Assembly: GCF_010907035.1 (NCBI RefSeq)
Contig: NZ_QUMK01000016.1
Span: 1 to 64,000, forward strand
Direction: 5' to 3'
Length of the DNA stretch: 64,000 nucleotides
DNA from: Rhodopseudomonas sp. BR0M22
GTDB lineage: Bacteria > Pseudomonadota > Alphaproteobacteria > Rhizobiales > Xanthobacteraceae
This document shows, piece after piece, positions 23,977 through 24,533 of the stretch. The notes under the pieces are model-generated. The model was not told where the DNA came from. It was given only the letters and a program-made list of their open reading frames with translations, and made no database searches. Both the position numbers and the translations under genes were made by a program. Numbering within the stretch: the first letter of the stretch is position 1; the number at the start of each line of letters is the position of its first letter.

Positions 23977-24093
23977 GAGATTCCGGGTTCGCGAGCTCAC
24001 GCTCGCGCCCCGGAATGACCTTGGGGCTAACTTACTGAGTTCACCGCGAGTCATTCCGGGGCGCTTGCGGCACGCAAGCGAACCCGGAATCTC
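23977..24093. repeat. Inverted pair of palindromic elements (family A, pair 3)
   Basis: Inverted copy 23977-24019 and direct copy 24048-24093. The inverted copy starts 12 bases upstream of the ligA start, so it lies in the ligA leader; the direct copy ends 18 bases before the start of the GIY-YIG gene. Confidence 0.85.
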
Positions 24094-24111
24094 GCCGCGC
24101 GCGAGGCGCCG

Positions 24112-24399
24112 GTGGCCTATTATGTCTACCTAGTCGCCAGCCGGAAAGACGGTGCGCTGTATGTCGGCGTCACCAACGACCTCGTCCGCCGGGTCTACGA
24201 GCATCGCACCAAAGCCGTGCCGGGTTTCACCTCGAAATACAACATCGCCAGACTGGTGTGGTTCGAAATCCACGACGACCCGATCTCCGCAATCACCCGG
24301 GAAAAGGAGATCAAGAAGTGGCGGCGCGCCTGGAAAGTGGCGTTGATCGAGCGGGACAATCCGGGCTGGGAGGATCTGTTCGAGACGATCGTGCGATAG
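24112..24399 (+). CDS. GIY-YIG nuclease family protein (UPF0213-like)
   Basis: 95 residues from GTG 24112, with GAGG 5 bases upstream. Single-domain protein: YYVYLVASRKDGALYVGVTN (the GIY and YIG strands), then DLVRRVYEHR with the catalytic-type Arg, and AITREKEIKKWRR with the Glu. Length is typical of stand-alone UPF0213/YhbQ-like members. It is on the opposite strand to recN and ligA and closely flanked by family A palindromes (18 bases before, 25 bases after). Function unknown; a role in processing branched or hairpin DNA is an inference. Confidence 0.88.
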   Translation: MAYYVYLVASRKDGALYVGVTNDLVRRVYEHRTKAVPGFTSKYNIARLVWFEIHDDPISAITREKEIKKWRRAWKVALIERDNPGWEDLFETIVR

Positions 24400-24424
24400 G
24401 CCGGGGCCGGGTGCCCTGAACCTC

Positions 24425-24533
24425 GGGATTCCGGGTTCGCGCTGCGCGCGCCCCGGAATGACGGCGTGTTGAGAAACGGCCCCTCAGCGAGTCATTCCGG
24501 GGCGCGAGCGAAAGCTCGCGAACCCGGAATCTC
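24425..24533. repeat. Inverted pair of palindromic elements (family A, pair 4)
   Basis: Inverted copy 24425-24462 and direct copy 24489-24533, same family as pairs 1-3. It lies between the GIY-YIG stop and the recN stop. Together with pair 3 it brackets the GIY-YIG gene with copies in opposite orientation. Confidence 0.85.

Follow-up and report, generated by a model that had tools for sequence, protein, structure and literature searches.

What is a gene for a small nuclease doing between inverted copies of a dispersed palindrome? The question is raised by a 64,000-nucleotide stretch of DNA from Rhodopseudomonas sp. BR0M22, which we call the window and which lies on contig C67 of a 5.29-Mb genome in 159 contigs. 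A preliminary description of the window had reported a 95-residue GIY-YIG gene with palindromes of one family, here family A, 18 and 25 bases from its ends and in opposite orientation. The open reading frame is present and matches the GIY-YIG family, and all four of the flanking repeats are found (Table 1). We argue that the gene product is a nuclease dedicated to a REP family of the CGTC type, in a REPtron-like system in which a single-domain GIY-YIG protein stands in place of a Y1 transposase (RAYT), and we put the probability of this reading at about 0.65. Most relatives of the gene, in many bacteria, likewise lie next to a version of the repeat that matches them, and the nuclease is therefore probably the partner enzyme of a widespread repeat family.

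Table 1. Repeats and genes around the GIY-YIG gene (positions are those of the window)
Feature	Position	Strand	Basis and remarks
Gene-less REP pair, usual "><" order	20017..20140	.	Folds as a single long hairpin, z -7.7
Partial REP, tag-side half only	20156..20175	-	Repeat match
Gene-less REP pair, usual "><" order	21715..21813	.	Repeat matches
ligA-like neighbour (presumed)	21818..23974	-	ORF; adjoins the GIY-YIG gene in 10 ortholog loci tested
Outer upstream REP, tag toward the 24050 copy	23977..24019	-	Hairpin z -6.4
Upstream REP of the "> gene <" bracket, tag outward	24050..24093	+	18 bases 5' of the gene; DNA hairpin -19.1 kcal/mol, z -7.0
GIY-YIG nuclease gene (predicted)	24112..24399	+	GTG start, 95 aa; ORF and Pfam match
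Downstream REP of the bracket, tag outward	24425..24462	-	25 bases 3' of the gene; DNA hairpin -15.3 kcal/mol, z -4.4
Outer downstream REP, tag toward the 24425 copy	24491..24533	+	Hairpin z -5.9
recN-like neighbour (presumed)	24554..26239	-	ORF; adjoins the GIY-YIG gene in 10 ortholog loci tested

The Repeat Family

In what follows, ">" stands for a REP that is read starting at its tag. Around the gene the repeats run < > gene < >; the two inner ones, 24050 and 24425, form a "><" pair that encloses the gene, and one more REP lies beyond each of them. Over their aligned arms the outer flanking repeats are 95% complementary and the inner ones 84%. The two gene-less pairs of the preliminary description are also present, but their arrangement is "><", opposite to that of the "<>" pairs on either flank of the gene. 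At the first of them, the genome G006 has the same pair in the same place; at the second, G006 and G007 carry pairs with other spacers and a different second REP. The half REP that adjoins the 20.0-kb pair is found in G006 as well and is a decayed third copy.

The 15-base end of the repeat has nine matches in the window when up to two mismatches are allowed; 0.73 are expected, and none of 100 shuffles reached nine. The family A repeats in the window are not there by chance. The genome as a whole holds 147 exact repeats (77 forward, 70 reverse) and no copy of a reversed control pattern. Over 100 listed places among these repeats, 23 of the 27 close pairs are "><", with spacers of 20–70 bases, and four are "<>", two of which are the flanks of the GIY-YIG gene. 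Searches of long-spacer pairs for nuclease remnants returned weak matches alone (best E-value 0.011). A search for known RNA families over positions 19900–24700 of the window gave one match, with an E-value of 0.86 and a score of 26 bits where the gathering score is 90; membership of a known RNA family was rejected.

When they are folded as single strands of DNA, all four copies that flank the gene leave GTC unpaired. An 8-bp stem (ATTCCGGG/CCCGGAAT) is followed by a small internal loop and an upper stem-loop that is variable, and the tail, also unpaired, is CTC or CCC in these copies and frequently CCA beside other members of the nuclease family. The CGTC-REP superfamily, defined by Di Nocera, De Gregorio and Rocco (2013; PMC3733652) and including Neisseria dRS3 and Rickettsia RPE-4 and RPE-6, is described in the passages of that paper used here as having an unpaired CGTC (or TGTC, CCTC) tag, an 8–9 bp stem with AT as the first pairs and a short unpaired tail. 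According to the same passages its members occur in high copy number and as dimers in five phyla, mostly in alpha-Proteobacteria including R. palustris and Bradyrhizobium, and they "apparently lack a dedicated transposase," and the question of what moves them was left open (PMC3733652). Family A fits this superfamily in its tag, its stem and tail, its high copy number and its inverted dimers. The base before GTC is C or A in the window (CGTC or AGTC), which makes the first tag base looser than in the published tag. The GIY-YIG nuclease is the best candidate for the enzyme that is missing from these repeats.

The Gene and Its Locus

The 95-amino acid protein matches Pfam family PF01541 (GIY-YIG) with an E-value of 1.4E-15 and 57.7 bits against a cut-off of 22.6. 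No other Pfam family scores above its cut-off, and the protein is a bare GIY-YIG domain. Residues Y6, Y17, G19, R27, H31, E64 and N83 do not vary among the 15 aligned relatives, and we take Y6, Y17, R27 and E64 to have the catalytic roles of their counterparts in GIY-YIG enzymes. Catalytic-type residues are thus intact in what we predict to be a nuclease. The protein has no PADLOC match at an E-value of 0.01, and for this reason a role in anti-phage defence was rejected. To our knowledge, the family of small GIY-YIG genes to which it belongs has no known function.

A structure model was made for the relative L053 (the first row of the 15-member alignment) rather than for the window protein, and has a pLDDT of 95.9. 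Among solved folds, it comes closest to those of UPF0213 proteins and of Slx1, a nuclease of branched DNA. A sequence search of solved structures matched solely the UPF0213-type entries PDB 1zg2 and 1ywl, which rank best or tenth-best in the fold search with the L053 model. A homing endonuclease among the PHROG families matches the GIY-YIG protein weakly (E-value 0.0015). Across ten orthologs (45 pairs) dN/dS has a median of 0.13 and a maximum of 0.23, values that indicate purifying selection on the gene.

Eleven of 16 genomes of the genus have a close ortholog, and family A REPs lie on both sides of all 11. At least four of these REPs were detected at ten of the loci and three at L011. All 11 carriers have the gene at one locus, between neighbours that we take to be ligA-like (an NAD-dependent DNA ligase) and recN-like. 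The preliminary description had named a fixed ancestral locus, with no repeats in relatives, as a result that would speak against its proposal; the fixed locus is confirmed in the carriers, but the repeats are there in the relatives too. It had also suggested a search for strains with an empty site; one of the five gene-less genomes (G015) has a short, bare ligA–recN spacer that contains neither gene nor repeats. The same spacer holds a different palindrome, of the CTCTCCCCGC type, and no nuclease gene in G012 and G003 (L077, L081); it is without such a gene in G008, and in G014 it is cut by a contig end inside a family A pair. In L012 (G004:C1:3886578-3886855) the ortholog matches as two pieces in different frames and therefore looks disrupted; its flanking REPs are intact.

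Are REPs more abundant where their nuclease is present? We compared the 16 genomes with and without the cognate nuclease clade, using one-sided p-values that are uncorrected for relatedness or for the number of tests (four). GGCCGG REPs have a median of 86.5 copies with the clade and 35.5 without it (p-value 0.0015), and CGCCCG REPs 7.5 and 1 (p-value 0.007). For family A the values are 163 and 95 (p-value 0.039; 0.018 when G014, where the contig breaks off in a REP pair at the nuclease locus, is excluded), with G004 counted as a carrier despite its disrupted-looking gene. For TGCCGG REPs a higher number with the clade had been predicted beforehand, but the difference is non-significant (22 and 14; p-value 0.07). 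Cognate REPs are commoner in the presence of the nuclease clade for three of the four families tested. The genomes without a family A nuclease have 35–164 family A copies.

These data bear on the possibility that the gene is a domesticated caretaker, that is, a host repair enzyme which cuts or resolves its cognate REP hairpins and cruciforms in the way of SbcCD or Slx1, or which limits the number of REPs, and does not spread them. Such an enzyme would agree with the low dN/dS, with the single ligA–recN locus of the 11 carriers and with nearest folds that include a branched-DNA nuclease. However, nothing requires a caretaker gene to lie between inverted copies of its substrate, and the larger number of REPs in genomes with the nuclease suits a spreader better. 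RAYT genes, which are read as spreaders, are likewise often fixed and single copy. We consider a caretaker unlikely, and a dedicated nuclease of the REP family remains our preferred reading.

REPs beside Relatives of the Gene

We examined named loci on genome contigs, the best 80 of 562 found with the 15-member alignment. In these best 80, a strict detector finds a REP within 400 bp of the gene at 45 loci, with a density of 2.66 per kb at 0–200 bp, 0.23 at 200–400 bp and 0.03–0.14 farther away; with each of three wrong tags it finds 1/80. A relaxed detector finds a REP within 300 bp at 66 of the same 80 loci and 0–1 with six wrong tags. Across genomes the repeat is strongly enriched next to these genes, as the preliminary description had expected of a true partnership: 3.14 REPs per kb near the gene versus 0.15 beyond 1 kb by the relaxed detector. 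By eye, most of the 14 loci without a detected REP also show such palindromes, which are not counted here. The titles of the records with strict matches name Proteobacteria of several classes, Planctomycetes, Omnitrophota, Moraniibacteriota, Berkelbacteria, Bacteroidetes, Ignavibacteria, Nitrospirae, Chloroflexi/Dehalococcoidales and Sulfurovum, or approximately nine phyla by our own grouping of these titles, although many of the records are metagenome bins and individual taxon labels may therefore be wrong.

How often would an ordinary gene have such neighbours? One flank or both have a REP within 100 bp at 71/96 nuclease genes and 81/679 control ORFs (four of 100 loci were omitted for short flanks). 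REPs lie within this distance on both sides of 47/96 nuclease genes, against 8/679 control ORFs and 0/199 small ones, and the "> gene <" bracket is found at 34/96 nuclease genes and at none of the 679 controls. At 200 bp, both sides are occupied at 51/94 nuclease genes versus 12/648 control ORFs, and the bracket counts are 35 and 0. Inverted repeats from flank to flank with a score of at least 15 occur at 65/74 nuclease genes and 24/478 control ORFs, two of 76 loci having been dropped for short flanks; this contrast is conservative, because the control ORFs include some copies of the nuclease gene and some of the genes next to it.

Other palindromes, with the frame GTCAT...ATCCA, flank most of the more distant paralogs that these genomes of the genus carry. 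A divergent GIY-YIG relative that is 39% identical, L017 (G008:C1:4844127-4844396), is flanked by hairpins of the GTCATCCTGAGG type, which suggests that the pairing with REPs extends past the close family of the window gene; L098–L100 are divergent genes similar to L017. On contigs classed as viral (L187–L227; 41 fetched, with L225 and L227 left out), a CGTC REP lies within 300 bp of 12/39 relatives.

The distribution of the gene is patchy. Among 299 genomes of the phylum, 83 have it at an E-value of 1E-12, and a single genome can hold up to 11 members of the family. At least ten exact CGTC-1 repeats are present in 17 of the 299 genomes, ten of which have the gene (Fisher p-value 0.009). No gene was detected in the other seven (e.g., G193, with 69 copies), and REPs can clearly exist without the nuclease gene. 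Two genomes illustrate the extremes. G382 has two exact CGTC-1 repeats in all, and both flank its nuclease gene (G382:C12:16368-16794), possibly a founder state. G245 has 490 exact CGTC-1 repeats, and its sole nuclease match at an E-value of 1E-12 is a fragment with an internal stop; the repeats may outlive the enzyme.

Which arrangement do the nearest REPs take? A set of 156 loci, comprising relatives and orthologs that were not thinned, includes 33 without a detected REP and 93 with REPs on both sides. In the 93, the nearest REPs are arranged as "> gene <" at 64 loci, "> gene >" at 11, "< gene <" at nine and "< gene >" at nine.

We also looked for recent movement. We mapped 39 flank blocks of the window's genome to G006, G004 and G012, and compared 77 stretches of G006 and G012, which are approximately 92% identical to it over the window region. 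For 39 REP clusters (37 of 40 home loci), each set against these two relatives, 66 comparisons could be placed and 12 could not; of the 66, 57 have a REP at the corresponding site and nine are empty. With 57/66 sites occupied in relatives that are 92% identical, no recent movement was caught. Seven sites gave an empty comparison; at the six inspected (all except L251) we saw no target duplication, no clean junction of an insertion and no clean empty site. Of these six sites without family A in the relative, three have another CGTC pair (L248, L256, L265), and the rest have other palindromes or a spacer that cannot be aligned. L248, L256 and L265 and their counterparts in G006 and G012 each show one intergenic site with a different CGTC family pair in each species. 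These sites hint that REP pairs are replaced in place, although a preferred or standing target would look alike. Synteny between the window region and ten relatives is too diverged to show an insertion junction.

Could the nuclease and its terminal inverted REPs instead be an ordinary small insertion element that moves as a unit, with the REP pairs as its MITEs? The predominance of "> gene <" (64/93), the numerous family members in some genomes and the patchy distribution (83/299) are what such an element would produce. In contrast, the orthologs stay at one locus in 11 genomes and the inspected sites showed no clear mark of insertion; moreover, we know of no transposase chemistry for GIY-YIG proteins. 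An insertion element of this kind seems to us improbable, more so than a caretaker.

Stem Types and Nuclease Clades

At 81 of the 93 two-sided loci the stem type is equal on both sides (up to one mismatch in six), whereas 1000 shuffles average 25.5 and never exceed 38. When the stem labels are placed on the protein tree, 36 changes suffice for 31 types (n = 123), compared with a mean of 72 and a minimum of 68 in 300 shuffles. This full set holds a duplicate (L118 = L009); with such copies removed by keeping one protein per 80% identity group (n = 82), there are 31 changes versus a shuffled mean of 49.9 and a minimum of 45. Within the genus, paralogs of the same genome with less than 60% identity have the stem in common in 1/14 pairs and proteins of different genomes with at least 75% identity in 76/84 pairs, from which it follows that the host is not the cause of the match. 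The match between REP and nuclease is loose at middle identity: at 60–75%, the six-letter stem label is common to 5/12 pairs within a genome and 50/103 between genomes. From these comparisons of sequences, REP stem type tracks nuclease phylogeny, and each clade of the nuclease tends to be paired with a repeat family of its own.

A partnership at the RNA level, with the REPs acting as transcript hairpins (terminators or processing sites) that regulate the nuclease or its mRNA and no transaction on DNA, leaves unexplained why stem type should track nuclease clade across phyla. It would accommodate the sites that keep a REP pair though the family changes, and the passages of Di Nocera et al. used here place REPs mostly downstream of genes, where they are plausibly transcribed (PMC3733652). 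We regard it as very improbable. A hot spot in which small genes in REP-rich spacers gain REPs by chance is rejected by the control ORFs and the tree labels: REPs are abundant (147 exact copies) and adjoin 81/679 control ORFs on at least one side, but they lie on both sides of none of the 199 small ones and bracket none of the 679, and chance does not make stem type follow the protein tree.

Discussion

How might a dedicated nuclease of this kind act on its REPs? GIY-YIG enzymes hydrolyse DNA and are not known to form a covalent strand-transfer intermediate, so that strand transfer would be left to the host and any spread would go through host repair. It is tempting to picture the nuclease binding its cognate REP when this is folded as a hairpin, in a single strand or a cruciform, and recognising it by the GTC foot and a clade-specific lower stem. 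It might then nick the bound REP, and the broken REP or pair could be repaired by copying another REP pair; alternatively, a cut pair might be captured at a replication fork. On this view the bracket with the gene, inherited vertically at one locus, would be the source, and the REP pairs would be its non-autonomous elements. More tentatively, and with rather less confidence than we have in the partnership itself, we propose that CGTC REPs in many phyla, those of the dRS3 type included, are spread and replaced in this way by single-domain GIY-YIG nucleases and without a transposase, the nicking of cognate hairpins being followed by host repair that copies a REP pair elsewhere.

With a candidate enzyme and matched families of substrates in hand, the question of what moves the CGTC REPs, including dRS3, becomes testable with a single protein and a single oligonucleotide. 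If our reading is correct, there would be a class of mobile repeats driven by a hydrolytic nuclease, a second and unrelated chemistry for the dispersal of REPs, and a function to assign to a family of small GIY-YIG genes. The stem types, up to some thirty although some may be variants of one family, would be natural pairs of nuclease and hairpin with different specificities. We found no paper linking a GIY-YIG nuclease to REPs or palindromes in the open-licence PMC literature (preprints excluded; looser queries judged by their best-ranked matches). Both the repeats and the protein fold are known, and it is their pairing that appears to be new, as a variant of REP-enzyme systems that is not a RAYT.

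Comparison with Known Systems

Among proteins of known structure, the UPF0213-type entries 1zg2 and 1ywl resemble the window protein in being single-domain GIY-YIG proteins; they differ in sequence, with 24% identity in the fold alignment, and their PDB titles call them hypothetical proteins. Slx1, which according to the titles of its PDB entries acts on branched DNA, and the GIY-YIG homing endonucleases have the GIY-YIG core in common with it. In contrast to them, the window protein has no extra domain in its 95 residues, and its gene is intergenic with a dispersed hairpin repeat as partner.

The repeats themselves are like CGTC-REPs in their GTC tag, 8-bp stem, unpaired tail, high copy number and dimers. 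They differ in that the tag may be AGTC as well as CGTC in the window and the upper hairpin is variable. The greater difference concerns the enzyme: a GIY-YIG nuclease family is tied to the repeats here, whereas the passages of Di Nocera et al. used here report no associated transposase gene, and a text search of the main text of that paper does not find "GIY" (PMC3733652).

The closest parallel is with the REP-RAYT or TnpA-REP systems (REPtrons, REPINs). RAYT is described, in the part of the source that we cite, as a tyrosine transposase that acts on GTAG REPs through a covalent tyrosine link, with the GTAG foot used in both recognition and cleavage by TnpA-REP (PMC8266576). In both systems the gene of the enzyme is flanked by inverted REPs, each type of enzyme is paired with its own REP family, and a few genes are accompanied by many small non-autonomous pairs. 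The window system has a GIY-YIG protein (PF01541) and GTC-tagged REPs rather than a Y1/HUH tyrosine transposase and GTAG REPs, and membership among the RAYTs was rejected on both counts. The preliminary description had likened the layout to an element and its catalyst, with a GIY-YIG nuclease in the place of the transposase, and the bracket and the clade-matched REP type support that likeness: as in a REPtron, the enzyme gene is flanked by its REPs and the clade of the enzyme is matched to the type of REP.
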